Shown here piece by piece: positions 7,352 through 64,000 of a stretch of 64,000 nt of DNA. The stretch's first letter is position 1. Every line of letters starts with the position of its first letter. This DNA is from Gracilariopsis chorda (Eukaryota; Rhodophyta; Florideophyceae; Gracilariales; Gracilariaceae), in assembly GCA_003194525.1 (NCBI GenBank), contig NBIV01000082.1, forward strand, positions 245,135 through 309,134, given 5' to 3'. Both the position numbers and the translations under genes were made by a program. The notes beneath the pieces are model-generated. The model made no database searches and was not told the DNA's origin. It worked only from the letters and a program-made list of their open reading frames with translations.

Positions 7352-7381
7352 TAATGTATTAAGCCGCGCTTTGGAATTCAA

Positions 7382-10044: not shown

Positions 10045-10097
10045 AACTCAGTCAAGAAGAAATCGAAACGTGATTTCGATTTCTTCTTGACAGAGTT
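10045..10097. other. Long perfect hairpin, 18-bp uninterrupted arms
   Basis: The left arm 10051-10068 (GTCAAGAAGAAATCGAAA) and right arm 10074-10091 are exact reverse complements around a 5-base loop, CGTGA. After one A/A mismatch the pairing continues for five more bases (AACTC/GAGTT), giving about 23 paired positions. It lies in an intergenic region. It could be a foldback RNA, a pair of inverted short duplications or a replication-generated palindrome. Nothing else indicates which. Confidence 0.8.
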
Positions 10098-27951: not shown

Positions 27952-27995
27952 GTTTTCAGGTTGCCGCAGCGTGGCAACCCTTGAGGTTGGGGTTG

Positions 27996-42727: not shown

Positions 42728-43556
42728 TGAAGTGCAGCCCCTTCAGAAAAGGTTTTTGGCATTTGGATGATTTCGTGAATGTTTCGGTAATGTATTTATT
42801 GCATAAGCTACGAGCCTCAAATAATGGAATGGACACTTGGAACAAGAAATTGTCAATTGGTGGTTGGCCACATTAGTGGGCATAAACAACCAATATGGAG
42901 TAATTTTAATTAGTTTTATTTATTATTTTACACCCATTTCTGGGATGGTTAATACTTAGTGTGACAGGGAATTGCCGCCGCAGCAGTAAACTTTCCCCAA
43001 CTAGGGGCCCCAAACTGGGTAATTAGTTCTAGACCTCATCGCCTTCGCGTGCTCTCTACTCCTTTTTAGAGGGAGGTACCGTAATCTACGGAAAGTCTAT
43101 TCCCCTTGCCTCCCTAAAAGAAGATAATGTAGGGACGGGTATTCCAACTACCTTGGCGTTTGTCTTGGTAAAAGGGATATTAACCGACACTGCTGTTTGT
43201 TATAGTCACTTTCATGACTCAGCATCCTCTCGCTCATTCCTTACTTTTCTTCTCTTCCTTTTCCCTTTTTAAGGTGGGGGTCTCACCACCCGCGGCAAAT
43301 GTCGGCATGACGCTCCTACGTGGGAAGAACAGCTCTGCCGACGACACTAACCCACACACACCTTCTCTGCAGATACGGAATTCTTGCCTTAACCTCACTG
43401 CGCAAGTCACGACAGGCAGGCTCGGGCTTACAACCCGACACATTCGTGCGACCTCTGGGAGGGCTCTACCCAACTCGGTTCAGATTTAACGAGGAAAGAT
43501 CTCAAAGGCCTATTGGTGTTCTCCAGATCAATTGCATTGCACCACAAAGTGGTCTT
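42728..43556 (+). repeat. 5' LTR of element C (829 bp)
   Basis: Starts TGAAGTGCAGCCCC and ends TTGCACCACA, like the B LTR. Many substitutions have degraded most of the short inverted repeats seen in A and B. The primer site after it differs from the family at several bases (TGGTCTTCGGACCTAGAA). Confidence 0.85.
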
Positions 43557-43661
43557 CGGACCTAGAATTGATGTTGTGTTGTGTTCATTCTGTTCAAAAT
43601 TCGATTCTTTTGTTGGATTTCAGAACGTTTCGTCATTTTTACATCGTAACATTTCGCCGTC

Positions 43662-45841: not shown

Positions 45842-45939
45842 CTGAAGGCGTCTCCTCTTTGGGGGTGGCGTCCTCAGATATGAGGATGTTGACGTACAAG
45901 GCGTCGCAACCTCGCTCCTCGGTTGAAATCCTGCCAAGG

Positions 45940-46746
45940 TGTGGTGCAATGCCCCAAAGGGGAAAAACACCGAAAGACGTCCGGGATCTTCCTCTCACGA
46001 GGTGAACCCAGTTGGGTAGAGCCCTCCCAGAGGTGTCACGGCGAAGCCGGTTTGTAAGACCAGGGACACCTGTCGCGACTCGCGCAGGGAGGTGAAGGCG
46101 AAGAATCGGTATCCGCGTGAGCGGGGTGTGATCCTCAGTAGAGGTATGTTTCCACGTAAGTGGGGGTGTGTGAGCGGATGCGCACACGAGGGCCGCGGAT
46201 AGCGGGAGGTGCTACCCTAAAAAGGGGAAAGAGGAAGGACGAGTGGGTCGCGAGAGCGACGAGTAGATACGGCGATGCCGGTGGACGGGACTCCCTATAC
46301 AGGGCGAAACACCAATATGATTGGAACAATTAGTACTCCCAATGATGGGTCTCCTTTAGATGTGCAAGGGGGGTGAACTTCCGTACACTACGGTGCTTCC
46401 CTCCAAGGAGGAGTTGAGAACACGCGGAGGCGGTAAAGCTCAGAGCCAATTCCCCAGGTTGGGGTCCCTTCTTGGGGAAGGTTTACTGGTGCGACGGCAG
46501 TGCGCCGTCGCACTAAGTACTAGCTTCCCAGAAATGGGTGTGAAAATAATAAATAAAATTAACTAAAATACTCCACATTCCGTAGCAACATCCACTACTG
46601 TGGCCAACAGCCAATTGACCCAGAACCGTGTCCCACGTGTCCATACCCACCATTGTGGGGCGTAGTTCATATACACACTACACAACCGATAATATCGGGA
46701 AAGCGTTCAAGTACCCAGAATCCCTCCCTGAGGGCGTTGCACTTCA
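45940..46746 (-). repeat. 3' LTR of element A (807 bp)
   Basis: On the minus strand it runs from TGAAGTGCAACGCC to TTGCACCACA, the same length as the B LTR (807 bp). Because the antisense ORF starts 57 bases from its U3 edge, this LTR would have to promote transcription outwards in the plus direction if that ORF is expressed. Confidence 0.92.
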
Positions 46747-46757
46747 TATCCCCCCCC
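46747..46757 (-). other. Polypurine tract of element A
   Basis: On the minus strand GGGGGGGGATA lies directly before the 3' LTR start (TGAAG), as required for plus-strand DNA priming. Confidence 0.7.
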
Positions 46758-46802
46758 TAAGACGGGAAAACGACCGCGGACGCGGAGGATTCCCAGACGA
46801 AA

Positions 46803-48650
46803 ATGGGTGATAAAAGCGCGAACGCCGTCTCCGGTTCTCCGGTAAATCCCTCTGCACCAGAGTCAACACTTCCTGCTACTGCAGCTGTCATTTCCTCACC
46901 TCGCATCAGCACTTCCTCGTCACCGAGCGCACTCCGACAAACAACAATGACCACCCTCGAAGAGGGAGAAATGAACAACGACAACAACATCACCAACAAC
47001 AGCCAACCTCCGAGGTCTCTCGGGCGATACACCACCGGTTTCCGGTCAGCTCCCCTGCCTCAGGGCGATCAACCTCCGGTACAACCGGGAAATATGGCTG
47101 CTGAAGCCAACCATCCCTTCGCATTACCACCTTCGGTGGGATCCTCCGGAACCGCTCCGGTGTCCAACTGGCCAACCTACAACATCCTGGTGGGGCTCAA
47201 CCCGATGAATCGGAATCACGCGTCGCGCCTGCGCCTTGCCCCGTGGTTTCACCCGGTCGCCGTCCTCAATGAGGGATTGGTCACCGCTTATGCGGATGGC
47301 TCAGACACCCTTCCGGGGGATCTGCCCAGAGCAGTTACCACATCGTGGGATTGGCGTCACCGGATCGCGATTCCGCGTCACCACCTCCGAAGGAATTCGG
47401 GCGAGACCGTCGCTGCGGCGCAGACCGCGCTGACGCGCATGGCGTACCAACGGCAGAGCCGGGCTCCGTTCGATGTACCGGTCCCACCGGAGTTTGGCTT
47501 CGACATTAGCTACTTCCGCACTCGCGGGGAGATTGGGTACGGCGAGAACCTGTTCCGCCTCGAGACCCTCGCTTGGAGGAATTTCCCCGCAGCGCGGCAA
47601 GAGGCCCTTTGCTGGGAGCGACCGATTATTCGGGCGGAGTTCAGGTACCTTCCCCGGCAATACCGGTCCAACTTTCTCCAAAACTTCATCCGCTACGAGC
47701 GGCGTTGGCGATCCCGATTCGGGTACTTTATCCCGTATCAGAACGTGGAGATAGAGCGGATTGCGCCGCCTCACCGACTAGGTCGGTATGTAGCACTCCC
47801 CGAGTGGTGGCGCTTCCATGAAGCCTGCCGGGGGTGCTACGTAGAACTTCCGCCGGTACTTACGTACCTCGGTTCGCTGCTCATGCAGGATCCCCGGTCG
47901 GGGTTGTGGTCCGTAGTGGTTACGGAGTGGGCGGCCCGCAATGCGGCTTATATCCTCAACGAGGCGTACGACCAGTATCGTCTCTGGTTCCTTCAACCGC
48001 GCGTGCGGGCAGCGATCCGAAACCTGGATCTTCGCATCCCCCTTGGGGGCCAGGCCAACAATGAAGAGGTCCTCCAATTACTTGGGTACATCGACAGCGT
48101 TAGCTGGAGTGAGGTCCCGCTGGAGCAAAGCGGTCGTCTGGATGGCGGCAGCGGTAACACCGGTGGCTCGGGACTGGGTAGAAACACCGCCCTTGCGGGT
48201 GATTTTATCTACTTCGACCCCTGGGAGTTCCGGGAAATTTCCTCCGAGGAGGCGCGCGAACTTCGCGATGCGCCCCGGCATGTGACGGAAGACCACCCGG
48301 TGGGGTACGTCGATTCTGACGATTACTACCGCGCATACGGCGGGGATGACCCAATGGTCGATAACGATCCGGAAGAGCCCGGGGAGATGGACGTAGAGGA
48401 CACCGGCGCTAGCGCGGAAGCTTCCCCAGAGGGGGTACCTCCGGCCGAGCCGGCTGCTGACCCTTCGGCGGCGAGTGCCGGCCCTTCTATCCCCAGCGGG
48501 GTAACGGCGAATGAAAACGAGATCATCGCGCGTTTTCTCCGGGGTGCCGGTCTTAGCGCTGCCGAGGTATCGGGGGATGTCACCACCATGGCGGACGCGT
48601 TGGCCTACCGCCTTGCTGGGGGTTACGCCCCGGGCAACGGCGAAGAGTGA
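46803..48650 (+). CDS. Antisense ORF of element A, 615 aa, unknown function
   Basis: Uninterrupted 615-codon frame on the strand opposite gag-pol, lying between the chromodomain frame and the 3' LTR. The ATG (AAAATGGGTG, good context) is 57 bases from the LTR. Residues about 1-120 are Ser/Pro/Asn-rich and low complexity. The central part (about 120-440) is well-ordered in composition, rich in Trp, Tyr, Arg and Pro (for example WNFPAAR-like and FLQNFIRYERRWRSRFGYF segments). A Gly/Ser linker follows, then an acidic C-terminus (about 480-570) and a small helical end. There is no signal peptide, membrane segment or zinc motif, and I recognise no family. Antisense ORFs at this site are known in some plant gypsy elements (for example the Retand type). 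Whether this one is related is unknown. Confidence 0.7.
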   Translation: MGDKSANAVSGSPVNPSAPESTLPATAAVISSPRISTSSSPSALRQTTMTTLEEGEMNNDNNITNNSQPPRSLGRYTTGFRSAPLPQGDQPPVQPGNMAAEANHPFALPPSVGSSGTAPVSNWPTYNILVGLNPMNRNHASRLRLAPWFHPVAVLNEGLVTAYADGSDTLPGDLPRAVTTSWDWRHRIAIPRHHLRRNSGETVAAAQTALTRMAYQRQSRAPFDVPVPPEFGFDISYFRTRGEIGYGENLFRLETLAWRNFPAARQEALCWERPIIRAEFRYLPRQYRSNFLQNFIRYERRWRSRFGYFIPYQNVEIERIAPPHRLGRYVALPEWWRFHEACRGCYVELPPVLTYLGSLLMQDPRSGLWSVVVTEWAARNAAYILNEAYDQYRLWFLQPRVRAAIRNLDLRIPLGGQANNEEVLQLLGYIDSVSWSEVPLEQSGRLDGGSGNTGGSGLGRNTALAGDFIYFDPWEFREISSEEARELRDAPRHVTEDHPVGYVDSDDYYRAYGGDDPMVDNDPEEPGEMDVEDTGASAEASPEGVPPAEPAADPSAASAGPSIPSGVTANENEIIARFLRGAGLSAAEVSGDVTTMADALAYRLAGGYAPGNGEE

Positions 48651-48738
48651 GCTCCTTTTGTCCAGTTTTCCTGGTATTCTTTCCCTGGCTATGCCAGTTA
48701 GTGTAGTGTAGTATCGTGAGGAGCTAGCTGCTCCCCTG

Positions 48739-48744
48739 AATAAA
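48739..48744 (+). terminator. Possible polyadenylation signal of the antisense ORF
   Basis: AATAAA 89 bases after the stop codon of the antisense ORF, in the 190-base gap between the two convergent coding regions. Confidence 0.4.
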
Positions 48745-48843
48745 CTTTCCCGTTTAGAACGGTGATTTCCAATTAGCATTCCCCGTCTTAGACGGACTTT
48801 CCCTTGCTATCCTTTCTCATTGCCCTCCGCTCGCGCGGCAACG

Positions 48844-50184
48844 TTACCCAACTTGGGCATTAACCAGCGTGGCTGGGGCTGCAGTTCCCGTTTGACGGTG
48901 GTATCGCACGATCTGCGACCGTGGGAGGTGTTCAATTGGCTCCCACGTATCCCCACTGGGGTCGTACCCGTACCAGCGGACGCGGTATTGTAGAATACCA
49001 TCCTGGTCCCAGGTGTGTCCGACAAGTCGGTCTACTACGAACTCTCGTTCGTAGACCTGCCGGCCGTGCCGGGTGGTGGTTGTACTCCCTTGCGAGGGTT
49101 GTCCGCGGTGCGGTATAATGTCCCTTAGCAGGGTGTTCGGCGATAACTCCGACGTTGCCGTGCGCTGTCCTAGTGGCCGCTGCTCATGCGGGAAAATATC
49201 CCTCAAGAGGGTATGTGGTGTCACGGTTTTCCCCGGCAAGTCATTCCCCATTGGGGTGTCGTTGTTCCCGTCTTCACGGTAGGCCAGGCGAACCGCCAAC
49301 CGGCGGGGGACTTGAACTCCGCATTCGCGGTTGAACTCACGAACCGCGAGTTTGCGGGAAGATGACCGCTCCTGCGGAATCGGCGTTTCCACGATCCCCT
49401 GGGGGGTCCCGTGCGACACGGTGGTTGGATGGCAAACCGCCTCCCTGCCAGGCGCACGAGCGCTCTGCACCGTACGTTCCGGCGGCGCCGTGGTGTCCCC
49501 GGCTACTGGGGGGTTGCCTAAGGCTAACTCCGGTACACCGGTATTTTGGTCAAAATTACCCTTTGGGGGGTGCCGGGCAGGTGCCGATGACACCCTTTTC
49601 AGGGGCCGGGCCGCTAAGTGCGGTGCACCGTCTCCATGAGGAGGAGCAGCGTCCGGTACGACCGGTTTCGAGCGTGCGATGGCGCGCGTTTTTTCCCGAG
49701 TTCCTCGGTTCTTCGCCGCAGCGTTGCGGTGGTTGGCGCAAATTATTCCCCGGAACGGGGGCTTCGATTCCGTCTGCGACGGGGAGCGTTTCCGAGCGCT
49801 GCGCGCCAGGGCCTGAAGCTTCGGATGCGGCTTGGCTACCCTTTTCCCCGATAGGGGTGTGGGTATTTCCCAGCGGCGCTGGTGTATCTGGGCGCCTCTT
49901 CTCCGCGGGGCGCGGGTCTGAGCGACCTGATTGAACCGCTTCCGCGGGGACTTCCGCCAATGGCGGCTTTGAGGCATCTCCCTGCTCAGGGGATTGAGGG
50001 CGATTGTCGCCGTACTCCCGTATCGGGGATCCTTCCCTGACAGGGGTGTGCGGTAGCTGCGTTTCAGCTTCCCGTGTAACACGGTGTATTTGCCGCCTTT
50101 GCGGGACCTGCGCGTCTGGTTCCTGTTGCACAGCGCTGCCCGAGGACGGGGGATTAGTGTCGCGTGAGATACTCCGTGCTCCAC
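48844..50184 (-). CDS. C-terminal frame of element A pol, with chromodomain
   Basis: This frame overlaps the end of the main pol frame (49556-50184) and is one base out of phase with it, so the polyprotein reaches it only by frameshifting, or after an indel. Its first 380 residues are a Pro/Arg-rich linker. Residues about 390-440 form a chromodomain: EFVVDRLVGH, then LQYRVRWYGYDPSGDTWEP, then the helix LPRSQIVRYH. Such domains on gypsy integrases bind histone marks and guide insertion into heterochromatin. The frame has no convincing own start (it opens with a non-ATG or internal codon). Confidence 0.75.
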   Translation of the reverse strand: MEHGVSHATLIPRPRAALCNRNQTRRSRKGGKYTVLHGKLKRSYRTPLSGKDPRYGSTATIALNPLSREMPQSRHWRKSPRKRFNQVAQTRAPRRRGAQIHQRRWEIPTPLSGKRVAKPHPKLQALARSARKRSPSQTESKPPFRGIICANHRNAAAKNRGTREKTRAIARSKPVVPDAAPPHGDGAPHLAARPLKRVSSAPARHPPKGNFDQNTGVPELALGNPPVAGDTTAPPERTVQSARAPGREAVCHPTTVSHGTPQGIVETPIPQERSSSRKLAVREFNRECGVQVPRRLAVRLAYREDGNNDTPMGNDLPGKTVTPHTLLRDIFPHEQRPLGQRTATSELSPNTLLRDIIPHRGQPSQGSTTTTRHGRQVYEREFVVDRLVGHTWDQDGILQYRVRWYGYDPSGDTWEPIEHLPRSQIVRYHRQTGTAAPATLVNAQVG

Positions 50185-53100
50185 GGTCAGTTGTCCGTAT
50201 GGTACGGCGTGTTTCCCGTTGCGACGGCGATCTCATTCCTCGAAAACGAGTGTTCTCCTCCCCCTCCTGAGACGGAGCGGCGGGATAAGGGATAACATGC
50301 CCCGCCTGGCGGGTGTAGATTCGCGCCATAGGGGCGGGCACAGAGAGGCCCGAATTACCCGGCTGAGCCGGTGAGTCCGACAGGGTCGGTAGGTCTGAGA
50401 GTCCCCGGGAGGGGTGTGGTAGCACGGTAGGCCGTCTCACCACCGATGTATCGGATGCAGAGCCATATTCCAGCGTAGGGTCCAGCGTAGCTGGTGCAGC
50501 CTCAGTCGAGGGTGGCGGAGCTAGCACGATGCGATCGCGAGATAACCGCTCATGCGCGTCACCCATTTCCACAACCACTGTGTCCGTCGTGACGGAGATA
50601 ACCTTGAAAGGACCATCCGCCACAGGCGAGAGCTTATGGTGCTTCTCCCTTTCAGGGTTGTAGTACTCCTTGCGGACGAATACGAAGTCCCCGGAGTTGA
50701 TCTGTTCCGGTTTGCCTCCTCGCAAGCGAGCATCGAAATTCCGTTTGTAGACGGCTTGGGCGTGGTCCATCGCCTTCCGCGCTGCGGGTACCAGCTTGGT
50801 CAGCCATGCTTTCCACTTCTGGCGGTAATCCTTCACAGAAGGGAACGCGTCCAACGTAGGTTGGGATTCCAACGCCATTGGCGGGGGTGTCCGTGAAAGG
50901 ACCAACTCGAAAGGGGATATTCCGGTAGTCCGGTGTACCTGCGTATTGTACGCAAAGGTCACGGCATCCGTGTAGATATCCCAAGTCTTGGGGTGGTCAG
51001 CCGTGTAAGCACGGAGAGCTGCGAGCATTGTCCGGTTGAAACGCTCGACCTGCCCATTAGACTGGGGATGATACGTGGTCGTGAAGAGATTCTTCACGTC
51101 CAGTATCCGACAGACGTCCTGGAAAAATCGCGATGCGAACTGTTTCCCGTTGTCGGAAAGTAGCTCCAAAGGAGGTCCGTAGGCAAACACCCAATGCCGC
51201 ACAAAGGCGTGAGCGACCGTGTAGGCGGTAATCCTCTTTAGAGGGACTGTCCGAACTAATTTCGAGAACCTGTCCGTAATAACGAGTAGGAACTTGTTGC
51301 CTCTCCTGGTAGAGAGCAATGGTCCGAGAATGTCAATTGCGACAAACTCGAGCGGCGCCCTGGCGGGGAATAGCTTCATCCGTTTGGAGTGCTTCCGGAG
51401 TTTGACCCGGTTCTTCGCGCATTGCGTGCAAAACCGCACCGTAGCGTAGCAATCAACCGCCATGGCGGGCCAGTAGAAATCCCTGCGAAGGGTTAGATAA
51501 AGCTTCCTCCCACCGGAGTGTCCCCCGAGTTTCGGGTAATGCGAAAGGTGCAATATCCGCTTCTGTAGCGTGTGCGGTACCACAACTTGTGGGGTAGCCT
51601 CGACGGTCCTCACGAGGTAACCAATGTCGTTCACCCCGAAGGGGAGGTTCTCTCCGCCGTTGAGGCGTGCACGTATCCTTGTACAGAAGGGGTCCCCGAA
51701 TTGTTCTCGGATCATTTCCTCGGTCTCAACCGGTACATAATTTCCCGGTATGGGTTTCTCAGAATCATCTCGCGATGCGAGTAGGTAGTCGAAGTCAGCA
51801 TCTTCGTCCCAGTTTTCTGGCTCAGCCTCGACGGCACATTCCGGATCATCCGGGTCCATTGCCAGGAAACATGGGACTTCATCATCCTCCGTTGGGAGTG
51901 CCTCCCCACTTGTGGGTAAACGCGACAGAGCGTCGGCTTGGGTGTTCTGCGCGCCCTTTTTATAAATGACTTGAAAGTCATATTCCGCGAGGCGGAGTCT
52001 CCAGCGCATGAGGCGTCCCGACGGGTCGGAGATATTCATTAACCACCTCAGTGAGGAATGATCCGTGTACACGGTGAAATGGACTCCCATAAGGTAGGGG
52101 CGCAGAGTGGTCATCGCCCATACGACGGCGAGGCACTCTTTCTCCGATACGGAGTAGTTCCGCTCATGAACATTGAGCGAACGTGACCAATAACCAATTG
52201 GATGTCGTTCCCCCTCGGGGGTGGTTTGAAAAAGAGCACACCCGACTTGGTAGTCGCTCGAGTCCGTATCTACGGAGTATGGCAACCCAAGTTGTGGGAG
52301 ATGTAGGATTGGTGCTGATGTGACAGCCTCCTTTAAGGAGTTAAAAGCTTCCGATTGCTCGGGCGTAAATGTTCCCAGTTTTGGGGGGTTCCCCTTTCGC
52401 AACAACGCGTTCAGGGGCGCTGCAGTATCCGAAAAGTTCGGGATAAACCGTCGATAGACGTTGACCAGCCCCAGAAAGGAGCGCAGTTCCGTTTGAGTAC
52501 GGGGTTCTTTCGCCTCAACGAGGGATTTGACTCGAGCTTTCTCGATCGCTAACCGTCCAGGACGGATAATGTGACCCAGATATTTCACAGTATCTGTGAA
52601 AAACTCGCATTTCCTCAACTTGAGGGTAATTCCCGCATCGCGGAGTACGGTCAGCACGTCTCGGACGTGAGTGAGATGGTCGTCCAACGAGTTGGAGAAG
52701 ATGATAATATCATCAAGGTAGACCAGACAACTCCGCCACTTAAAGCGGTTGAGTAGAATATCTACTGCACGCTGAAAGGTGGCGGGGGCGTTGGTTAACC
52801 CAAATGGCATCCGCTTGAAGCGGTACGTTCCTGCATGGCAGGTGAATGCGGTTTTGTCGCGATCCTCCTGTCTGACAGGTACTTGCCAATATCCCCAATT
52901 GGCATCAAGGGCCGTGAACACGGTGGCGTCTCCAAGGGAGTCAATGCACTCGTCCATACGAGGGATGGGGTACGTGTCCCTAACAGTCACGGCATTGAGC
53001 CGGCGGTAGTCGACACAGAACCTCCAGGTTCCGTCAGCCTTTAAAGCCAGTACAACTGGGGATGCCCAGGGCGATTGAGCGGGCTCAATCACACCTGCGC

Positions 53101-54319
53101 GGAGCATCTTGTCCACCTGGGACTGCTCCTCTTCCCGAGCTTTCGGACCTGCCCTGTAAGGGGGTTGTGCAACCGGTCGCGCACCGGGGATTAAATCGAT
53201 CCGGTGTTCCGTTGCATCAATCTCGCCAAGCGAGCCATCCCACATTGTGGTGAATTCCCGTAACATAGTACGGAGTTTGTCGCGGTGCGACTCTGGCACG
53301 TGGCTGAAGTCCAGCGCTTCAAGTGCTTTTTCCGGATCAATCCGGTCATTGCTCGATGGAGCATTGTCCTGTGGAACAGGTGTGGTTCGCAATTCCGAGT
53401 TACTCGGTATGTTCGACGCTGAAGTAGCGGTTTCCTCCCCCTCCTTAGACTTGACGTCTTCGGACGGCGGGGTGAACTCCTCAGAAGAGGTGGTAACTCC
53501 GAGTACATCGGCGGCTGTCATCTTCGTTGGCAGCATTCCCATAGGATGGGGGGTTACACTCCCAATTACTTGGTGTTTGACCAGATACTGGGGGTGTTTG
53601 CCAAGATTGGCAACCAATATCCGGAAAGGAACATCCGGGGAAATGGAGACAATTCCATTAGCCAGCGCCAGCTGGGATTTCTCGTACAACGAGGCGAGGG
53701 GTTGTATAACCCGAAGACCGTGTTGACGGGAATTTACCTGTACCCAGACTTGGGACTCAGCCGGTATAGAAACCGAGGCAGCGACGCGGAGCTTGGTGGA
53801 CTCGCGGGACGCGGGCGGTGGTTCCTGCGCAGCAGGGAGCGGAACTTGTTTCCGAGAGGACCGCTTTAGCGGGCGGCGAACAATCGGAACCGACGATCCG
53901 TCGTCAAGTTCTACACGCCTGAGGCGGGGCCTGATTGCGTCGACAAATCTGTCGCAGTAATCACATCCCAGTATGACTGGTGCTGCCAGTGAACGGCAAA
54001 CGATGAAGTCCAACTTCACCACAGATGTACCAAGTCTCACGACGAGGTCCACTGTGCTCACCGTTTGTAACGGATTGTTGTTCGCATCCGAAATGTCGGG
54101 GACCGCGTCAGAGCGGATACGAGACCGCACAAGCGGGGGTAACAATGATTCCACAACGAAGTTGGGGCCTGCACCTGTATCCAGGACGGTGAGAAACCTC
54201 ACCATAAACTGGGGATCAAGGCCAAGGTCGGCATAGACCTTATAGTTGCGCTTGGCCATGATCAAGACTCTACCGGGAATCCGGGGATTTTTACTCCGTA
54301 TCCACGGGCGACGCAACAC
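49556..54319 (-). CDS. pol of element A (protease, RT, RNase H, integrase)
   Basis: About 1587 codons. The frame opens just after the gag stop, and the 54319 codon is not an ATG. Domains by residue: retropepsin with LDTGAGPNF (about 46-54) and VILGCDYCD (about 113); RT with FCVDYRRLN, FTALDANWGYWQV, RMPFGLTNAP and YLDDIIIFS (about 535); RNase H from [11 protein letters not shown] (about 685); integrase zinc module HLSHYPKLGGHS ... CTQCAKN (about 925-965); and catalytic triad in AIDILGPL (about 991), LSDNGKQF (about 1055) and NGQVERFNR (about 1090). A GPY/F-type module (GPFKVISV) is at about 1240, then a long Pro/Ser/Arg linker. All key residues are present. Confidence 0.9.
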   Translation of the reverse strand: MLRRPWIRSKNPRIPGRVLIMAKRNYKVYADLGLDPQFMVRFLTVLDTGAGPNFVVESLLPPLVRSRIRSDAVPDISDANNNPLQTVSTVDLVVRLGTSVVKLDFIVCRSLAAPVILGCDYCDRFVDAIRPRLRRVELDDGSSVPIVRRPLKRSSRKQVPLPAAQEPPPASRESTKLRVAASVSIPAESQVWVQVNSRQHGLRVIQPLASLYEKSQLALANGIVSISPDVPFRILVANLGKHPQYLVKHQVIGSVTPHPMGMLPTKMTAADVLGVTTSSEEFTPPSEDVKSKEGEETATSASNIPSNSELRTTPVPQDNAPSSNDRIDPEKALEALDFSHVPESHRDKLRTMLREFTTMWDGSLGEIDATEHRIDLIPGARPVAQPPYRAGPKAREEEQSQVDKMLRAGVIEPAQSPWASPVVLALKADGTWRFCVDYRRLNAVTVRDTYPIPRMDECIDSLGDATVFTALDANWGYWQVPVRQEDRDKTAFTCHAGTYRFKRMPFGLTNAPATFQRAVDILLNRFKWRSCLVYLDDIIIFSNSLDDHLTHVRDVLTVLRDAGITLKLRKCEFFTDTVKYLGHIIRPGRLAIEKARVKSLVEAKEPRTQTELRSFLGLVNVYRRFIPNFSDTAAPLNALLRKGNPPKLGTFTPEQSEAFNSLKEAVTSAPILHLPQLGLPYSVDTDSSDYQVGCALFQTTPEGERHPIGYWSRSLNVHERNYSVSEKECLAVVWAMTTLRPYLMGVHFTVYTDHSSLRWLMNISDPSGRLMRWRLRLAEYDFQVIYKKGAQNTQADALSRLPTSGEALPTEDDEVPCFLAMDPDDPECAVEAEPENWDEDADFDYLLASRDDSEKPIPGNYVPVETEEMIREQFGDPFCTRIRARLNGGENLPFGVNDIGYLVRTVEATPQVVVPHTLQKRILHLSHYPKLGGHSGGRKLYLTLRRDFYWPAMAVDCYATVRFCTQCAKNRVKLRKHSKRMKLFPARAPLEFVAIDILGPLLSTRRGNKFLLVITDRFSKLVRTVPLKRITAYTVAHAFVRHWVFAYGPPLELLSDNGKQFASRFFQDVCRILDVKNLFTTTYHPQSNGQVERFNRTMLAALRAYTADHPKTWDIYTDAVTFAYNTQVHRTTGISPFELVLSRTPPPMALESQPTLDAFPSVKDYRQKWKAWLTKLVPAARKAMDHAQAVYKRNFDARLRGGKPEQINSGDFVFVRKEYYNPEREKHHKLSPVADGPFKVISVTTDTVVVEMGDAHERLSRDRIVLAPPPSTEAAPATLDPTLEYGSASDTSVVRRPTVLPHPSRGLSDLPTLSDSPAQPGNSGLSVPAPMARIYTRQAGHVIPYPAAPSQEGEENTRFRGMRSPSQRETRRTIRTTDRGARSISRDTNPPSSGSAVQQEPDAQVPQRRQIHRVTREAETQLPHTPVREGSPIREYGDNRPQSPEQGDASKPPLAEVPAEAVQSGRSDPRPAEKRRPDTPAPLGNTHTPIGEKGSQAASEASGPGAQRSETLPVADGIEAPVPGNNLRQPPQRCGEEPRNSGKNARHRTLETGRTGRCSSSWRRCTALSGPAPEKGVIGTCPAPPKG

Positions 54320-54452
54320 ACCGAGGTGCGCAGAGTCCGCGTCAGCGGTGTCTTTCCTCGAGAGGATTTCACCGGGGAGCGAGGCAGGGACGCCTCGGGC
54401 GCCAACAGCCTCTTGTGTGAGGACGCCTCTCCCAAAGGGGAGACTCCCTCAG

Positions 54453-56627
54453 TTAGTTTTCCGCCTTCGGCGGTGGGTTGGTTTCCTCGACAACGAGTGC
54501 TTCATCCCGTTGACGGGGGTTTCTATCCGCATAAGCGGGGGTTGCAACGGATGGTTGCGTGATCTCCCGAATCGGGGTGTATGAAGCTTGCCGCGCACGC
54601 GGGGTCTGTGGTAGGGCGTGAGAAAAGTCCGTTTTAGCACGGAGGTAGGAAGCCGTCGGGACGGAACGTTTCTCCTCTGGAGTGAGGGCCTCATAATTTG
54701 CCACCACCTTGGCCATATCCTTCAGTGAACAAATACACTGAGGAGAGGTATGGCCATGGGCATAGCACAGGTGGCAAATGAGAGCCAGCACCGCGACACG
54801 CGGATTATCATTCCGAGTATCGGAGAAGCGAACCGCAGGGCGGGTGTCAGTCCATCCAGGCCGTTGATAACGGGATTGACCGTTTGAAAACGGGAGTCGT
54901 TGGGGTTGAACCCGACTGTTACCACCGTATAGAACGGGATCTTCTGTTCCCGTATCATGGGTCATCTCCGTCGTTGACGGTAACTCACTGGTGGGTATCG
55001 ACACACCATCCCCCTGCGCTAAATGCACGGTATCAAATCCCTGTCCAGGGTTCCCATCCGCGGTGAGCGGGAGAGAGGAAGCTTCGCTTTCCAGCAACAA
55101 CGCTTTGGCGGATTTAGACCGATTGTTCGGAGTTCTTGCACGAAGTGCATCCCCTTCCGCTCGAGCGTGTTGGACCAGCTCGAGGTAGGTGATCCTTCGC
55201 TTGTCCTCCCGATAACGGGTAACTAAACTCCGGATTGCCGGGTCAAGACCATCAATGAACATGGTACTGCGCTCCCCAGCGGGGTATACGTTACCACATC
55301 TGTGGAAAGCCTTGTTAAGGCGCACCGAGTAATCGGTCTCGGTCTCTCCAGCACGCTGGCGTGTATCTCGCAAAGCGAGGATAGCCTGCTGAATAGCGGT
55401 GTTGGTGGCGTAGGAGCGCAGAAGATACTGCACAGCCTCCGGCCAGCAAGTAACTCCTCCCTCGGAGGCGCGAGAAGATCCTCGGACAGAGGTGTATTGG
55501 TCCTCGGCCACTCCCCGTAAGAAATACGGTAAAGCCAAATAGGCTTGTCCCTCATTCATACCGAGGATATCGGCCTCCGCTACAAAGCGGGATAGGAAAT
55601 CCAGTACTAGGACTGGGTCCTCTCCAGTAAAATACTGGTTGCGGAGCGAGAGCTGCATTCGCTTAATGCATTCTCGCACCTTTCCCGTACCACGGGGCGT
55701 ACGTCCAAGTGACGAATCTTCAAGCCGGTAGTACCGGTATGATAAAAGCTTCCGATAATCCGGGTTTGTCGGTTTCAATTCCCGGAGACCGGGGTGTCTT
55801 CTCCCCTTCTGGCGGGTTCGGACCACAGCTTCAGTGGCCGATGACCGCTTCGAGCGGGAGGAGTAGCCTCGCTTCTCGTCCTCCGAGTCGGAGTCCGAGG
55901 AGCTCGAGCTAACCGAATGGTTTCGGGGTGAGTGCGACGATGTCGAAGAATCGGAGTCCGAATAGTTTCGGTGATGTTTCCGTCGGTGACGGCGTTTCTT
56001 CTTCCCAGCAACCTGGTCGTTGTGCGATGCCTCGTTTACCGGATCACCCGGGGATGGTTTGTCCATGAGGACGAACTGCTCCAGCGTCTCCAGGCGGGCA
56101 CCAATCCGATCAAATCGGGCTTCAACTCCTTCGATGAAGGCGGCGGGTTGTCCCAAACTCTCCAACACGGAGTTGACGTCAGACCGTAAAATACGGAGTT
56201 CCTCGGCGACCTCCTCTACGGGGGTTGCCGAGACCACCTCTTGGAGGGATTTTAGTTCCCCTACAAGGGTGTCATGGGCGGTCCACAGAGCGCGGACCTG
56301 GGATTCCAGGGAAGTTCCCTGGGGGGTGTTATCACCCGTTCCACGGGGGCTTGAAGCCGCGACAGCGGGAGCAGGCCGGGGTGCCTGGGGCACTGCGGCA
56401 ACAGCCGGAGTCGATGCTGCATTCCCCTGCGGGGGTGATAACGAGGGCAAAAGGGGGTTCCGGGGTTCCCGGTCGGGGGTATCATTCCGCGATGAAGCGG
56501 CGCCAGCACGGCTGGAACTTGTCCGTATAGGGATACGGGGTACGAACCGAACTTCGGAAGTGTCCGCGTTGTCGCGGGAGCGACTACGCGTAACCACTGG
56601 CTCCGCGTCGGAGGGATTTCTCGACAT
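54453..56627 (-). CDS. gag of element A
   Basis: 724 codons from ATG at 56627. The N-terminus is rich in Ser/Arg/Pro. A helical region (about 110-190) is followed by a basic block (GKKKRRHRRKHHRN, about 213-226) that looks like a nuclear localisation signal, and the acidic Ser tract ending SDSDSEDEKRGY. The capsid-like domain (about 320-510) starts KRMQLSLRNQYF. A single CCHC zinc knuckle, CHLCYAHGHTSPQC, lies at about 613-626 with exact C-x2-C-x4-H-x4-C spacing. It ends AAC TAA, and pol is in another frame. The protein differs from the B copy at only a few positions. Confidence 0.9.
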   Translation of the reverse strand: MSRNPSDAEPVVTRSRSRDNADTSEVRFVPRIPIRTSSSRAGAASSRNDTPDREPRNPLLPSLSPPQGNAASTPAVAAVPQAPRPAPAVAASSPRGTGDNTPQGTSLESQVRALWTAHDTLVGELKSLQEVVSATPVEEVAEELRILRSDVNSVLESLGQPAAFIEGVEARFDRIGARLETLEQFVLMDKPSPGDPVNEASHNDQVAGKKKRRHRRKHHRNYSDSDSSTSSHSPRNHSVSSSSSDSDSEDEKRGYSSRSKRSSATEAVVRTRQKGRRHPGLRELKPTNPDYRKLLSYRYYRLEDSSLGRTPRGTGKVRECIKRMQLSLRNQYFTGEDPVLVLDFLSRFVAEADILGMNEGQAYLALPYFLRGVAEDQYTSVRGSSRASEGGVTCWPEAVQYLLRSYATNTAIQQAILALRDTRQRAGETETDYSVRLNKAFHRCGNVYPAGERSTMFIDGLDPAIRSLVTRYREDKRRITYLELVQHARAEGDALRARTPNNRSKSAKALLLESEASSLPLTADGNPGQGFDTVHLAQGDGVSIPTSELPSTTEMTHDTGTEDPVLYGGNSRVQPQRLPFSNGQSRYQRPGWTDTRPAVRFSDTRNDNPRVAVLALICHLCYAHGHTSPQCICSLKDMAKVVANYEALTPEEKRSVPTASYLRAKTDFSHALPQTPRARQASYTPIREITQPSVATPAYADRNPRQRDEALVVEETNPPPKAEN

Positions 56628-56711
56628 GAGAAAATACCGTTACGACGGGAAACGATCACGGAACTTCCGGTGAATGAAAACAAACCTCGTAAGAGGGAAA
56701 ACAAAAACCGA

Positions 56712-56729
56712 TTCTAGGTCGGGAGACCA
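56712..56729 (-). other. Primer binding site of element A
   Basis: Minus strand TGGTCTCCCGACCTAGAA, three bases from the LTR end. Identical to B (58018-58035), D (5076-5093) and E (3784-3801). Confidence 0.65.
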
Positions 56730-56732
56730 CTT

Positions 56733-57207
56733 TGTGGTGCAATGCCCCAAAGGGGAAAAACACCGAAAGACGTCCGGGATCTTCCTCTCACGAGGTGAAC
56801 CCAGTTGGGTAGAGCCCTCCCAGAGGTGTCACGGCGAAGCCGGTTTGTAAGACCAGGGACACCTGTCGCGACTCGCGCAGGGAGGTGAAGGCGAAGAATC
56901 GGTATCCGCGTGAGCGGGGTGTGATCCTCAGTAGAGGTATGTTTCCACGTAAGTGGGGGTGTGTGAGCGGATGCGCACACGAGGGCCGCGGATAGCGGGA
57001 GGTGCTACCCTAAAAAGGGGAAAGAGGAAGGACGAGTGGGTCGCGAGAGCGACGAGTAGATACGGCGATGCCGGTGGACAGGACTCCCTATACAGGGCGA
57101 AACACCACTATGATTGGAACAATTAGTACTCCCAATGATGGGTCTCCTTTAGATGTGCAAGGGGGGTGAACTTCCGTACACTACGGTGCTTCCCTCCAAG
57201 GAGGAGT
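56733..57207 (-). repeat. 5' LTR of element A, 3' portion only (475 bp)
   Basis: Matches bases 333-807 of the complete 807-bp LTR. It stops at GGAGT (57203-57207), exactly where the intact terminus of element B begins. The missing part should be found beyond the far end of B with GGAGT repeated. Confidence 0.85.
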
Positions 57208-58014
57208 TGAAGTGCAACGCCCTCAGGGAGGGATTCTTGGTACTTGATTGTTTTCCCGATATTATCGGTTGTGTAGTGTGTATATGAACTACGCCCCACA
57301 ATGGTGGGTATGGACACGTGGGACACGGTTTTGGGTCAATTGGCGTTTGGCCACAGTAGTGGATGTTGCCACGGAATGTGGAGTATTTTAGTTAATTTTA
57401 TTTATTATTTTCACACCCATTTCTGGGAAGCTAGTACTTAGTGCGACGGCGCACTGCCGTCGCACCAGTAAACCTTCCCCAACAAGGGACCCCAACCTGG
57501 GGAATTGGCTCTGAGCTTTACCGCCTCCGCGTGTTCTCAACTCCTCCTTGGAGGGAAGCACCGTAGTGTACGGAAGTTCACCCCCCTTGCACATCTAAAG
57601 GAGACCCATCATTGGGAGTACTAATTGTTCCAATCATAGTGGTGTTTCGCCCTGTATAGGGAGTCCTGTCCACCGGCATTGCCGTATCTACTCGTCGCTC
57701 TCGCGACCCACTCGTCCTTCCTCTTTCCCCTTTTTAGGGTAGCACCTCCCGCTATCCGCGGCCCTCGTGTGCGCATCCGCTCACACACCCCCACTTACGT
57801 GGAAACATACCTCTACTGAGGATCACGCCCCGCTCACGCGGATACCGATTCTTCGCCTTCACCTCCCTGCGCGAGTCGCGACAGGTGTCCCTGGTCTTAC
57901 AAACCGGCTTCGCCGTGACACCTCTGGGAGGGCTCTACCCAACTGGGTTCACCTCGTGAGAGGAAGATCCCGGACGTCTTTGGGTGTTTTTCCCCTTTGG
58001 GGCATTGCACCACA
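57208..58014 (+). repeat. 5' LTR of element B (807 bp)
   Basis: TGAAGTGCAACGCC to TTGCACCACA. The primer site is at 58018-58035. Short inverted repeats recur throughout, for example CCCGATATTATCGG, CGACGGCGCACTGCCGTCG and CTCCTCCTTGGAGG. Confidence 0.92.
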
Positions 58015-58119
58015 AAGTGGTCTCCCGACCTAGAATCGGTTTTTGTTTTCCCTCTTACGAGGTTTGTTTTCATTCACCGGAAGTTCCGTGATCGTTTCCC
58101 GTCGTAACGGTATTTTCTC

Positions 58120-60300
58120 ATGTCGAGAAATCCCTCCGACGCGGAGCCAGTGGTTACGCGTAGTCGCTCCCGCGACAACGCGGACACTTCCGAAGTTCGG
58201 TTCGTACCCCGTATCCCTATACGGACAAGTTCCAGCCGTGCTGGCGCCGCTTCATCGCGGAATGATACCCCCGACCGGGAACCCCGGAACCTCCTTTTGC
58301 CCTCGTTATCACCCCCGCAGGGGAATGCAGCATCGACTCCGGCTGTTGCCGCAGTGCCCCAGGCACCCCGGCCTGCTCCCGCTGTCGCGGCTTCAAGCCC
58401 CCGTGGAACGGGCGATAACACCCCCCAGGGAACTTCCCTGGAATCCCAGGTCCGCGCTCTGTGGACCGCCCATGACACCCTTGTAGGGGAACTAAAATCC
58501 CTCCAAGAGGTGGTCTCGGCAACCCCCGTAGAGGAGGTCGCCGAGGAACTCCGTATTTTACGGTCTGACGTCAACTCCGTGTTGGAGAGTTTGGGACAAC
58601 CCGCCGCCTTCATCGAAGGAGTTGAAGCCCGATTTGATCGGATTGGTGCCCGCCTGGAGACGCTGGAGCAGTTCGTCCTCATGGACAAACCATCCCCGGG
58701 TGATCCGGTAAACGAGGCATCGCACAACGACCAGGTTGCTGGGAAGAAGAAACGCCGTCACCGACGGAAACATCACCGAAACTATTCGGACTCCGATTCT
58801 TCGACATCGTCGCACTCACCCCGAAACCATTCGGTTAGCTCGAGCTCCTCGGACTCCGACTCGGAGGACGAGAAGCGAGGCTACTCCTCCCGCTCGAAGC
58901 GGTCATCGGCCACTGAAGCTGTGGTCCGAACCCGCCAGAAGGGGAGAAGACACCCCGGTCTCCGGGAATTGAAACCGACAAACCCGGATTATCGGAAGCT
59001 TTTATCATACCGGTACTACCGGCTTGAAGATTCGTCACTTGGACGTACGCCCCGTGGTACGGGAAAGGTGCGAGAATGCATTAAGCGAATGCAGCTCTCG
59101 CTCCGCAACCAGTATTTTACTGGAGAGGACCCAGTCCTAGTACTAGATTTCCTATCCCGCTTTGTAGCGGAGGCCGATATCCTCGGTATGAATGAGGGAC
59201 AAGCCTATTTGGCTTTACCGTATTTCTTACGGGGAGTGGCCGAGGACCAATACACCTCTGTCCGAGGATCTTCTCGCGCCTCCGAGGGAGGAGTTACTTG
59301 CTGGCCGGAGGCTGTGCAGTATCTTCTGCGCTCCTACGCCACCAACACCGCTATTCAGCAGGCTATCCTCGCTTTGCGAGATACACGCCAGCGTGCTGGA
59401 GAGACCGAGACCGATTACTCGGTGCGCCTTAACAAGGCTTTCCACAGATGTGGTAACGTATACCCCACTGGGGAGCGCAGTACCATGTTCATTGATGGTC
59501 TTGACCCGGCAATCCGGAGTTTAGTTACCCGTTATCGGGAGGACAAGCGAAGGATCACCTACCTCGAGCTGGTCCAACACGCTCGAGCGGAAGGGGATGC
59601 ACTTCGTGCAAGAACTCCGAACAATCGGTCTAAATCCGCCAAGGCGTTGTTGCTGGAAAGCGAAGCTTCCTCTCTCCCGCTCACCGCGGATGGGAACCCT
59701 GGACAGGGATTTGATACCGTGCATTTAGCGCAGGGGGATGGTGTGTCGATACCCACCAGTGAGTTACCGTCAACGACGGAGATGACCCATGATACGGGAA
59801 CAGAAGATCCCGTTCTATACGGTGGTAACAGTCGGGTTCAACCCCAACGACTCCCGTTTTCAAACGGTCAATCCCGTTATCAACGGCCTGGATGGACTGA
59901 CACCCGCCCTGCGGTTCGCTTCTCCGATACTCGGAATAATAATCCGCGTGTCGCGGTGCTGGCTCTCATTTGCCACCTGTGCTACGCCCATGGCCATACC
60001 TCTCCTCAGTGTATTTGTTCACTGAAGGATATGGCCAAGGTGGTGGCAAATTATGAGGCCCTCACTCCAGAGGAGAAACGTTCCGTCCCGACGGCTTCCT
60101 ACCTCCGTGCTAAAACGGACTTTTCTCACGCCCTACCACAGACCCCGCGTGCGCGGCAAGCTTCATACACCCCGATTCGGGAGATCACGCAACCATCCGT
60201 TGCAACCCCCGCTTATGCGGATAGAAACCCCCGTCAACGGGATGAAGCACTCGTTGTCGAGGAAAACCAACCCACCGCCGAAGGTGGAAAACTAACTGAG
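58120..60300 (+). CDS. gag of element B
   Basis: Same protein as the gag of A apart from a few substitutions (for example Pro to Leu near residue 58), with the same basic block, capsid domain and CCHC knuckle. One extra A in the run at about 60262-60265 removes the normal stop. Together with a second extra base near 60388, this fuses gag to the protease frame, so the open frame continues to about 60590. In A and C the gag stop is present. Confidence 0.85.
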
Positions 60301-63300
60301 GGAGTCTCCCCTTTGGGAGAGGCGTCCTCAAAAACGAGGCTGTTGGCGCCCGAGGCGTCCTCGCCTCGCTCCCCGGTGAAAGTCCTCTCGAGGAAAGACA
60401 CCGCTGACGCGGACTCTGCGCACCTCGGTGTGTTGCGTCGCCCGTGGATACGGAGTAAAAATCCCCGGATTCCCGGTAGAGTCTTGGTCTTGGCCAAGCG
60501 CAATTATAAGGTCTATGCCGACCTTGGCCTTGACCCCCAGTTTATGGTGAGGTTTCTCACCGTCCTGGATACAGGTGCAGGCCCAACTTCGTTGTGGAAT
60601 CATTGTTACCCCCGCTTGTGCGGTCTCGTATCCGCTCTGACGCGGTCCCCGACATTTCGGATGCGAAATAACAACCCGTTACAAACGGTGGGCACGGTGG
60701 ACCTCGTCGTGAGACTTGGTACCTCTGTGGTGAAGTTGGACTTCATCGTTTGCCGTTCACTGGCAGCACCAGTCATACTGGGATGTGATTACTGCGACAG
60801 ATTTGTCGACGCAATCAGGCCCCGCCTCAGGCGTGTAGAACTTGACGACGGATCGTCGGTTCCGATTGTTCGCCGCCCGCTAAAGCGGTCCTCTCGGAAA
60901 CAAGTTCCGCTCCCTGCTGCGCAGGAACCACCGCCCGCGTCCCGCGAGTCCACCAAGCTCCGCGTCGCTGCCTCGGTTTCTATACCGGCTGAGTCCCAAG
61001 TCTGGGTACAGGTAAATTCCCGTCAACACGGTCTTCGGGTTATACAACCCCTCGCCTCGTTGTACGAGAAATCCCAGCTGGCGCTGGCTAATGGAATTGT
61101 CTCCATTTCCCCGGATGTTCCTTTCCGGATATTGGTTGCCAATCTTGGCAAACACCCCCAGTATCTGGTCAAACACCAAGTAATTGGGAGTGTAACCCCC
61201 CATCCTATGGGAATGCTGCCAACGAAGATGACAGCCGCCGATGTACTCGGAGTTACCACCTCTTCTGAGGAGTTCACCCCGCCGTCCGAAGACGTCAAGT
61301 CTAAGGAGGGGAGGAAACCGCTACTTCAGCGTCGAACATACCGAGTAACTCGGAATTGCGAACCACACCTGTTCCACAGGACAATGCTCCATCGAGCAAT
61401 GACCGGATTGATCCGGAAAAAGCACTTGAAGCGCTGGACTTCAGCCACGTGCCAGAGTCGCACCGCGACAAACTCCGTACTATGTTACGGGAATTCACCA
61501 CAATGTGGGATGGCTCGCTTGGCGAGATTGATGCAACGGAACACCGGATCGATTTAATCCCCGGTGCGCGACCGGTTGCACAACCCCCTTACAGGGCAGG
61601 TCCGAAAGCTCGGGAAGAGGAGCAGTCCCAGGTGGACAAGATGCTCCGCGCAGGTGTGATTGAGCCCGCTCAATCGCCCTGGGCATCCCCAGTTGTACTG
61701 GCTTTAAAGGCTGACGGAACCTGGAGGTTCTGTGTCGACTACCGCCGGCTCAATGCCGTGACTGTTAGGGACACGTACCCCATCCCTCGTATGGACGAGT
61801 GCATTGACTCCCTTGGAGACGCCACCGTGTTCACGGCCCTTGATGCCAATTGGGATATTGGCAAGTACCTGTCAGACAGGAGGATCGCGACAAAACCGCA
61901 TTCACCTGCCATGCAGGAACGTACCGCTTCAAGCGGATGCCATTTGGGTTAACCAACGCCCCCGCCACCTTTCAGCGTGCAGTAGATATTCTACTCAACC
62001 GCTTTAAGTGGCGGAGTTGTCTGGTCTACCTTGATGATATTATCATCTTCTCCAACTCGTTGGACGACCATCTCACTCACGTCCGAGACGTGCTGACCGT
62101 ACTCGCGCGATGCGGGAATTACCCTCAAGTTGAGGAAATGCGAGTTTTTCACAGATACTGTGAAGTATCTGGGTCACATTATCCGTCCTGGACGGTTAGC
62201 GATCGAGAAAGCTCGAGTCAAATCCCTCGTTGAGGCGAAAAGAACCCCGTACTCAAACGGAACTGCGCTCCTTTCTGGGGCTGGTCAACGTCTATCGACG
62301 GTTTATCCCGAACTTTTCGGATACTGCAGCGCCCTGAACGCGTTGTTGCGAAAGGGGAACCCCCCAAAACTGGGAACATTTACGCCCGAGCAATCGGAAG
62401 CCTTTAACTCCTTGAAGGAGGCTGTCACATCAGCACCAATCCTACATCTCCCAAAACTTGGGTTGCCAATACTCCGTAGATACGGACTCGAGCGACTACC
62501 AAGTCGGGTGTGCTCTTTTTCAAACCACCCCCGAGGGGGAACGACACCAATTGGTTATTGGTCGCGCTCGCTCAATGTCATGAAGCGGAACTACTCCGTA
62601 TCGGAGAAAGAGTGCCTCGCCGTCGTATGGGCGATGACCACTCTGCGCCCTACCTTATGGGAGTCCATTTCACCGTGTACACGGATCATTCCTCACTGAG
62701 GTGGTTAATGAATATCTCCGACCCGTCGGGACGCCTCATGCGTTGGAGACTCCGCCTCGCGGAATATTGACTTCCAAGTCATTTATAAAAAGGGCGCGCA
62801 GAACACCCAAGCCGACGCTCTGTCGCGTTACCCACAAGTGGGGAGGCACTCCAACGGAGGATGATGAAGTCCCATGTTCATGGCAATGGACCCGGATGAT
62901 CCGGAATGTGTCCGTCGAGGCTGAGCCAGAAAACTGGGACGAAGATGCTGACTTCGACTACCTACTCGCATCGCGAGATGATTCTGAGAAACCCATACCG
63001 GGAAATTATGTACCGGTTGAGACCGAGGAAATGATCCGAGAACAATTCGGGGACCCCTTCTGTACAAGGATACGTGCACGCCTCAACGGCGGAGAGAACC
63101 TCCCCTTCGGGGTGAACGACATTGGTTACCTCGTGAGGACCGTCGAGGCTACCCCACAAGTTGTGGTACCGCACACGCTACAGAAGCGGATATTGCACCT
63201 TTCGCATTACCCGAAACTCGGGGGACACTCCGGTGGGAGGAAGCTTTATCTAACCCTTCGCAGGGATTTCTACTGGCCCGCCATGGCGGTTGATTGCTAC

Positions 63301-64000
63301 GCTACGGTGCGGTTTTGCACGCAATGCGCGAAGAACCGGGTCAAACTCCGGAAGCACTCCAAACGGATGAAGCTATTCCCCGCCAGGGCGCCGCTCGAGT
63401 TTGTCGCAATTGACATTCTCGGACCATTGCTCTCTACCAGGAGAGGCAACAAGTTCCTACTCGTTATTACGGACAGGTTCTCGAAATTAGTTCGGACAGT
63501 CCCTCTAAAGAGGATTACCGCCTACACGGTCGCTCACGCCTTTGTGCGGCATTGGGTGTTTGCCTACGGACCTCCTTTGGAGCTACTTTCCGACAACGGG
63601 AAACAGTTCGCATCGCGATTTTCCAGGACGTCTGTCGGATACTGGACGTGAAGAATCTCTTCACGACCACGTATCATCCCAGTCTAATGGGCAGGTCGAG
63701 CGTTTCAACCGGACAATGCTCGCAGCTCTCCGTGCTTACACGGCTGACCACCCCAAGACTTGGGATATCTACACGGATGCCGTGACCTTTGCGTACAATA
63801 CGCAGGTACACCGGACTACCGGAATATCCCCTTTCGAGTTGGTCCTTTCACGGACACCCCCGCCAATGGCGTTGGAATCCCAACCTACGTTGGACGCGTT
63901 CCCTTCTGTGAAGGATTACCGCCAGAAGTGGAAAGCATGGCTGACCAAGCTGGTACCCGCAGCGCGGAAGGCGATGGACCACGCCCAAGCCGCCTACAAA
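60301..64000 (+). pseudogene. pol of element B, broken by many one-base indels
   Basis: Protease (LDTGAG at about 60568) shifts frame when one C of a CCCC run is lost, then returns near 60668. Further shifts fall at about 61312 (one G of a G run), 61850 (GGGG to GGG before ATATTGG), 62110, 62240, 62768 (extra T) and 62868. All RT, RNase H and integrase motifs seen in A are still readable piecewise (YLDDIIIFS at about 62028, LLSDNGKQF at about 63583). Either B is dead, or these are consensus errors in a repeated region. Confidence 0.8.

Follow-up and report, generated by a model that had tools for sequence, protein, structure and literature searches.

A dense array of minimal Watson-Crick hairpins, possibly maintained by selection, spans a chromovirus of the red alga Gracilariopsis chorda

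A retrotransposon of the red alga Gracilariopsis chorda carries, from one long terminal repeat (LTR) to the other, an array of short perfect hairpins whose retention between subfamilies exceeds a neutral null in most of the comparisons undertaken. The element, hereafter A, occupies positions 45940-57210 (gag-pol on the minus strand) of a 64,000-nucleotide stretch lying at one end of contig NBIV01000082.1 (assembly GCA_003194525.1, positions 245,135 to 309,134 of the forward strand), referred to throughout as the window. With LTRs, reverse transcriptase (RT), RNase H, integrase and chromodomain all present, A is a chromovirus (Ty3/gypsy). The hairpin unit has arms of 4-6 nt and a total span of 11-14 nt, and occurs about once per 30 nt. 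Both this narrow geometry and the exclusive use of Watson-Crick pairs were features absent from a preliminary description of the window, made from its letters alone. Our preferred reading, held tentatively and with a probability of roughly 0.42, is that the array was built up and kept by selection, and that it works like the genome-scale ordered RNA structure (GORS) of certain viruses by keeping the single strands of the element locally folded.

Hairpin excess and geometry

Hairpins were counted as perfect inverted repeats with arms of at least 5 nt and loops of 2-8 nt, and each count was compared with the mean of 60 dinucleotide shuffles of the same region. The 11301 nt at 45940-57240, comprising A, yielded 231 hairpins against 72.6 in the shuffles (z 18.9), which bears out the earlier claim that the whole of A, genes included, is built of such units, and the part of copy B at 58000-64000 yielded 147 against 37.6 (z 18.6). 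The preliminary description had treated A and B as two cases, but at 99.1% identity over 6476 bases they represent one family and consequently count as a single observation. Its assignment of the hairpins to the A lineage was confirmed by the lack of any excess in element F (22300-28300; 24 against 36.8) and in the host stretch at 6001-45900 (243 against 243.6). Positions 1-4000 gave 27 against 24.5, and positions 4001-6000, containing an A-like fragment, gave 28 against 11.7.

Synonymous-codon shuffles, 200 per open reading frame (ORF), gave equivalent results for A pol (110 hairpins against 32.4, maximum 47), A gag (58 against 16.9, maximum 29) and 58108-61557 of B (91 against 26.4, maximum 38), so that neither of the two kinds of shuffle named in the preliminary description as controls reached the counts recorded in A. 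The corresponding control values were 11 against 18.9 for F pol, 7 against 8.8 for F gag and 8 against 9.4 for a subtilase gene of the window. The weakest excess within A was that of an ORF antisense to gag-pol at 46761-48650 (27 against 13.1, maximum 23, and 13.2 in dinucleotide shuffles), where mirror repeats were also raised (z 3.0). Over A as a whole, direct (76 against 69.5) and mirror (78 against 70.7) repeats did not depart appreciably from dinucleotide shuffles, and direct-complement repeats showed a small excess (85 against 62.4; z 3.0); the excess in A is specific to inverted repeats, with the direct-complement control slightly up. Low complexity expressed through direct, mirror or complement repeats, all at or near chance, was rejected as a cause, as were tandem repeats, of which there were three short rows only (scores 50-103).

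All ten hairpins previously reported from the RT stretch at 52811-53090 (minus strand) are present, and the mechanical count there is also 10, the two at 52811-52823 and 52867-52879, with loops of 1 nt, being counted only through inner or overlapping forms. The chance expectation of about two for that stretch agrees with the shuffle mean for A, equivalent to some 1.8 hairpins in 280 nt. For the equivalent stretch of element F (25621-25920) the reported sparseness was upheld, the count itself being 2 rather than the single hairpin claimed.

Tabulation by exact arm and loop length demonstrated how narrow the geometry is. Hairpins with an arm of 5 and a loop of 3 numbered 56 against 4 expected in 48844-57000 of A, and 43 against 4 in 58000-64000; those with arm 4 and loop 4 numbered 66 against 18, and those with arm 6 and loop 1 numbered 16 against 2. 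Loops of at least 7 nt were near chance, and arms of at least 7 nt showed no excess save for a few arm-8 cases. The excess of 11-14 nt stems was recorded in all 23 bins of A, LTRs included, at no less than 2.4-fold over control spans. Greedy selection retained 378 non-overlapping hairpins covering 42% of A, with a linker peak at 6-12 nt and centres seldom less than 16 nt apart. A strict 20-nt period, considered in view of a peak at 18-23 nt in the histogram of pair distances, was rejected, the windowed spectrum having no excess at 20 nt; the spacing is what minimum-distance packing predicts, with no extra period.

Pairing rule, base signature and folding energy

Pairs at the inner positions of A, summed over spans 11-14 and compared with an expectation derived from control spans, comprised 324 A-T against 86.6 (3.7-fold) and 876 G-C against 154.4 (5.7-fold), whereas G-U (102 against 118; 0.86-fold) and A-C (130 against 141) were not raised. 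An equivalent pattern was recorded at spans 12-13 in a sister group of elements (L090, L095 and 1500 bases of L092): A-T 304 against 98.4 and G-C 508 against 95.8, with G-U at 116 against 98.6 and A-C at 124 against 114. Since G-U remained near background while both Watson-Crick pairs were raised, the hairpins treat G-U as a mismatch.

The stem base carries a family signature. Among the span-12 hairpins of A the outer base is C in 116 of 134 and the second base C in 100 of 134, giving outer pairs C-G, C-G, with A following the 3' arm. In the sister-group (S) copies and L095 the outer pair leans towards G-C (G first in 21 of 41 hairpins of L090 and 15 of 32 of L095), the closing pair leans the same way, and A is the first loop base in 20 of 41 hairpins of L090 and in 18 of 32 of L095. 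The loop table for the A hairpins showed no shared loop motif, and no loop is common to A, S and L095.

Minimum folding energy differences (MFED) were calculated from 300-nt fragments with 12 shuffles each. The value for A was 11.6% on the sense strand, with 63 of 74 fragments above 3%, and 10.6% on the antisense strand (64 of 74), against 0.8% for element F, 1.7% for 6001-12000 and values between -3.7% and 2.9% for seven other families. With 3% as the GORS threshold and 12.0% given for human pegivirus (HPgV) in one source (PMC3950689), A falls within the range of GORS viruses. Folding z-scores were -2.11 and -1.91 with DNA parameters, and -1.34 and -0.85 with RNA parameters.

Distribution of the array among families

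The window belongs to a genome of 91.3 Mb in 1081 contigs. The wider survey used hairpins with arms of at least 5 nt and loops of 1-4 nt, again counted against shuffles. All 8 A LTR loci (34-56 against 11-14) and all 30 A RT loci (66-79 against 11-16) were high. Of 30 loci drawn by Pfam RNase H family, L034 was clearly high (32 against 10.2) and L035 and L037 slightly so; none of 20 further RT loci was clearly high. Within the L034 group, the six loci L089-L094 (L089 being L034 again) gave 26-36 against 10.9-13.3, and L095 gave 17 against 7.3. A FastTree phylogeny of the RT-RNase H part separated A, the L034 group, L095 and seven metagenome proteins from L084, L087, P0108 and the outgroups with a support of 0.978, and among the families sampled the array is restricted to this A clade. 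L084 and L087, which are 53-55% identical to A pol, have no 11-14 nt unit; the excess of hairpins with arms of at least 5 nt and loops of 3-10 nt that they do possess (22 against 12.2 and 22 against 11.0, respectively), together with MFED values of 8.5% and 7.7%, suggests that folding of a less strict kind may have preceded the small hairpins.

Within the window, the A relative at 4265-5599 retained 19.8 four-pair stems per span at spans 11-14 against 5.4 at control spans, and the equivalent figures for a relative of about 70% identity at 42728-45932 were 13.2 and 11.4. Relatives of A were sought in viral_contigs with no match, and in genome_contigs, where two loci were found: L096 had 57 hairpins against 31.5, but no excess of arm-4 stems of 11-14 nt at loops 3-4 (18 and 20 against 20 and 20), and L097 had no excess (15 against 18.1). 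L096 is the contig WTKN01000225.1 of a metagenome-assembled genome of Moorena, a cyanobacterium; it bears a chromovirus-like pol 40-43% identical to that of A, and is probably eukaryotic contamination of the cyanobacterial bin. Metagenome pol relatives 60-68% identical to A, among the best 120 of 6401 matches listed, entered the analysis as protein sequences.

Turnover and retention

Between A and its relatives few hairpin centres are shared: 15 of 67 with L095 (null 3.9), 12 of 97 with L093 (null 5.7), 9 of 60 with L091 (null 3.4) and 3 of 24 with L087 (null 1.4), in comparisons with third-position identities of 0.33-0.35. It follows that most hairpins turn over while their density stays; the sister group has the same spans, but their positions mostly differ from those in A, as do the preferred bases. 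Shared hairpins of equal span in three of the comparisons included 7 pairs changed on both sides and 45 unchanged, one-sided changes being impossible by construction in that set.

Within the A family, 30 copies form two groups of 18 and 12. Retention was scored as the presence in the other subfamily of a hairpin with at least 4 pairs and its centre within 1 nt, and compared with a neutral null of 200 shuffles. The eight directed comparisons gave 73/75 against 62.2 (P 0.000), 70/79 against 65.7 (P 0.110), 74/78 against 64.5 (P 0.005), 70/76 against 62.6 (P 0.010), 74/77 against 64.0 (P 0.000), 74/80 against 66.4 (P 0.025), 71/75 against 61.0 (P 0.000) and 69/77 against 63.7 (P 0.095), so that retention exceeded the null in six of the eight with P no greater than 0.025. 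Fixed differences at third positions, with L046 as reference, numbered 7/231 in stems, 102/761 in the rest and 19/174 in pseudo-stems of span 18-39 (p 1.7e-6); with L045 as reference the values were 16/250, 93/754 and 17/188 (p 0.0095). Singletons, which mostly arose after insertion, were not depleted in stems (23/237 against 54/718 third positions elsewhere; p 0.27), and a low mutation rate in stems is therefore not the cause of retention.

When the stems of L046 were sought in L045, 52 of 60 were unchanged, 8 were changed and none was compensated, against about 5.4 double changes at third-position pairs expected under neutral drift, a result that tells against the earlier suggestion that template switching had corrected accumulated quasi-palindromes. 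Stem differences between the two copies are mostly of one or two bases, and where blocks differ by many bases another hairpin can occupy nearly the same place, as around 3264-3280 of the compared piece. Compensatory change in the decayed relative of about 70% identity was rejected as a line of evidence, since 9 of 28 doubly changed pairs there were still Watson-Crick, which is about chance; between A and the relative at 4265-5599 the equivalent figure was 3 of 4.

Organisation of element A and its locus

The 3' LTR (45940-46417, minus strand) is 99.58% identical to the 5' LTR (56733-57210, minus strand) over 478 bases. Between them, also on the minus strand, lie a stop-to-stop gag ORF of 728 aa (54453-56639) with one CX2CX4HX4C zinc knuckle at ORF residue 622, a pol ORF (49556-54448) with Pfam matches to RVT_1, RT_RNaseH, RT_RNaseH_2, Integrase_H2C2 and rve, and a chromodomain ORF (48844-50232; Pfam Chromo, 8.9e-11). 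The antisense ORF near the 3' LTR (plus strand, 629 aa) has five matches altogether, to hypothetical proteins of Gracilariopsis chorda (52% and 40%) and of metagenomes, and on the strength of these homologues is apparently a genuine accessory gene belonging to A; a Pfam search with it returned nothing above cut-off.

Copy B (57537-64000, plus strand) is opposite in orientation to A, matches 50744-57210 and ends at the contig end. The segment 57200-58014, made up of the stretch preceding the B 5' LTR (57537-58014) plus that LTR, is 97.9% identical to 46754-45940, the 3' internal end and LTR of A, as though A had inserted into a tandem neighbour of B with which B has one LTR in common. The diverged relative that has kept the hairpin excess extends over 4265-5938 (minus strand; gag start plus LTR; blast pieces matching A or B at 82-87% identity), and the decayed one at 42728-45932, identified by blast, lies on the plus strand and has lost it. 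With the RT of A as query, all 150 copies scored among 3708 candidates were 98-100% identical, indicating a large and young family. Many of these 150 sit in the first few kb of contigs, which reflects either breakage of the assembly at the repeat or a location preference. The best named relatives of the window subtilase are those of Agarophyton chilense (45%) and Gracilaria domingensis (43%).

Evaluation of the alternative explanations

Selection on the array is moderately supported, whereas we infer its function, the RNA nature of the folded strand, the importance of both strands and the benefit conferred. Under the GORS-like reading every part of the strand would fold locally and fast, the identity of the paired bases being unimportant; genomic RNA would stay compact and be poorly reachable both for strand-strand pairing and for silencing guided by small RNAs, the antisense strand or cDNA would be likewise shielded since the pairs are Watson-Crick only, and easier packaging may add to the benefit. 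Watson-Crick-only pairing suggests that folding is required of the complementary strand as well, and the presence of what appears to be a real antisense gene makes it plausible that antisense RNA of A exists and that its pairing with the sense strand is a threat. We consider protection from strand pairing and from small RNAs the most probable mechanism, with packaging by Gag next. Among the causes offered in the preliminary description, a requirement for single-strand structure fits best, the strand itself being presumptively RNA.

Several results weigh against this reading. Two of the eight retention tests gave P values of about 0.1, and all eight share history and are not independent. The third-position depletion is partly a matter of ascertainment: stems were picked as perfect in the reference, so that changes on its own branch are hidden and the appropriate null is half of the neutral rate, against which the pooled 23/481 gave p 0.077. 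Strong stem conservation was accordingly rejected as a deduction from the raw counts and the retention test used instead. In the comparison of L095 with L093, an S copy of 70% identity, conservation was 72.1% in stems and 69.9% at other sites, a negligible gain. Hairpin-rich S copies have MFED values of only 1.3% and 0.5%, and the unrelated AT-rich locus L009 (G000:C943:5325-8621; GC 0.35), with no hairpin excess, has an MFED of 7.1%. Were RNA stability alone selected, G-U pairs should be tolerated, and here they are not. Finally, the flanks of 377 A hairpins are strand-asymmetric (A or C at -1 in 131 and 134, A at +1 in 152; p 3e-16), which favours one strand over two, although control stems are asymmetric to a lesser degree (p 5e-5).

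The hairpins might alternatively be dispersed binding sites by which Gag or another protein of the element would pick out the element's RNA, coat it and package it. Family-specific stem signatures and the zinc knuckle of Gag accord with such a role, and packaging-signal theory requires that numerous stem-loops be dispersed through the genome and have a motif in common (PMC6281560); A likewise has stem-loops in large number over its whole length, and their family-specific base pattern may correspond to such a motif. We nevertheless judge this explanation rather unlikely, because the density (about 378 hairpins per element, with the whole element covered) is far above that of described packaging signals, and the pattern in A lies in the stem base, its loops having no shared motif. 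A self-recognition code, in which family-specific minimal hairpins read by the element's own protein would mark the whole genomic RNA as self, with the 11-14 nt unit preserved among relatives but its signature altered, and with Watson-Crick-only pairs forcing both strands to fold, is a little less likely again.

Action in single-stranded DNA, namely cDNA during reverse transcription, where G-T forms no pair, would account for the background level of G-U and for the stronger z-scores obtained with DNA parameters. The latter may merely reflect G-U noise in RNA folding, the flank asymmetry favours sense polarity and such folding has no known benefit, so that we regard this explanation as distinctly unlikely. 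Pervasive DNA structure occurs in single-stranded DNA viruses, a point on which the literature search brought no confirmation. A functionless mutational process, in which RT perfects imperfect inverted repeats by template switching, shares with A short inverted repeats whose arms are perfect whatever their sequence, and arm homogenisation by such switching has been described in yeast genes (PMC8604942). It is very improbable here: arm homogenisation between copies is lacking (0 of 60 stems compensated), stem differences are small, switching should lengthen arms beyond the observed limit, and the outer C-G preference would be left unexplained. An origin of the array as a mere side effect of low complexity, codon use or base composition can be virtually dismissed; the GC content of the element (0.52-0.63) is indeed higher than that of the rest of the window, but shuffles preserving these properties fall far short, and within the same sequence the control spans do not rise above chance.

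Comparison with known systems and significance

In the GORS literature, coronavirus genomes are described as containing several hundred stem-loops with poorly conserved positions and pairings (PMC7642675). A tie to persistence or to evasion of recognition is a further attribute of GORS. A is comparable in exceeding the 3% MFED threshold genome-wide (PMC3950689), in having hundreds of unbranched local stem-loops through its coding sequence, and in that the trait is present in some lineages only and poorly conserved in position and pairing. There are also differences: GORS is a property of positive-strand RNA virus genomes, whereas A, with its RT, integrase and chromodomain, is an LTR retrotransposon, and is for that reason regarded only as working like a GORS virus rather than filed as one; its stem-loops are uniform and minimal, with at most about 6 pairs; the fold is equally strong on both strands; and it bears a family signature. 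The strict Watson-Crick rule, absent from the GORS descriptions as far as these were accessible (PMC3950689, PMC7642675), points to both strands or to DNA.

From other chromoviruses, with which it shares LTRs, gag, RT-RNase H-integrase and chromodomain, A differs in its hairpin array and in an antisense gene with red algal homologues. The available text on Ty3 RNA reports a mapped structured core rather than an array (PMC11381356), and a literature search of incomplete open-access scope found no comparable hairpin array in LTR retrotransposons.

By analogy with the genome-wide folding of some RNA viruses, these data suggest that folding, besides coding, can shape the sequence of a retrotransposon. 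Provided that selection does act on the array, an LTR retrotransposon would have evolved, on top of its coding function, a whole-genome local folding hitherto described in certain RNA viruses, thereby linking retroelements to GORS. A single algal genome would then offer natural replicates by the hundred, nearly identical to one another, alongside unstructured families that serve as internal controls, and the long-standing question of the purpose of genome-wide structure would become testable beyond vertebrate immunity.

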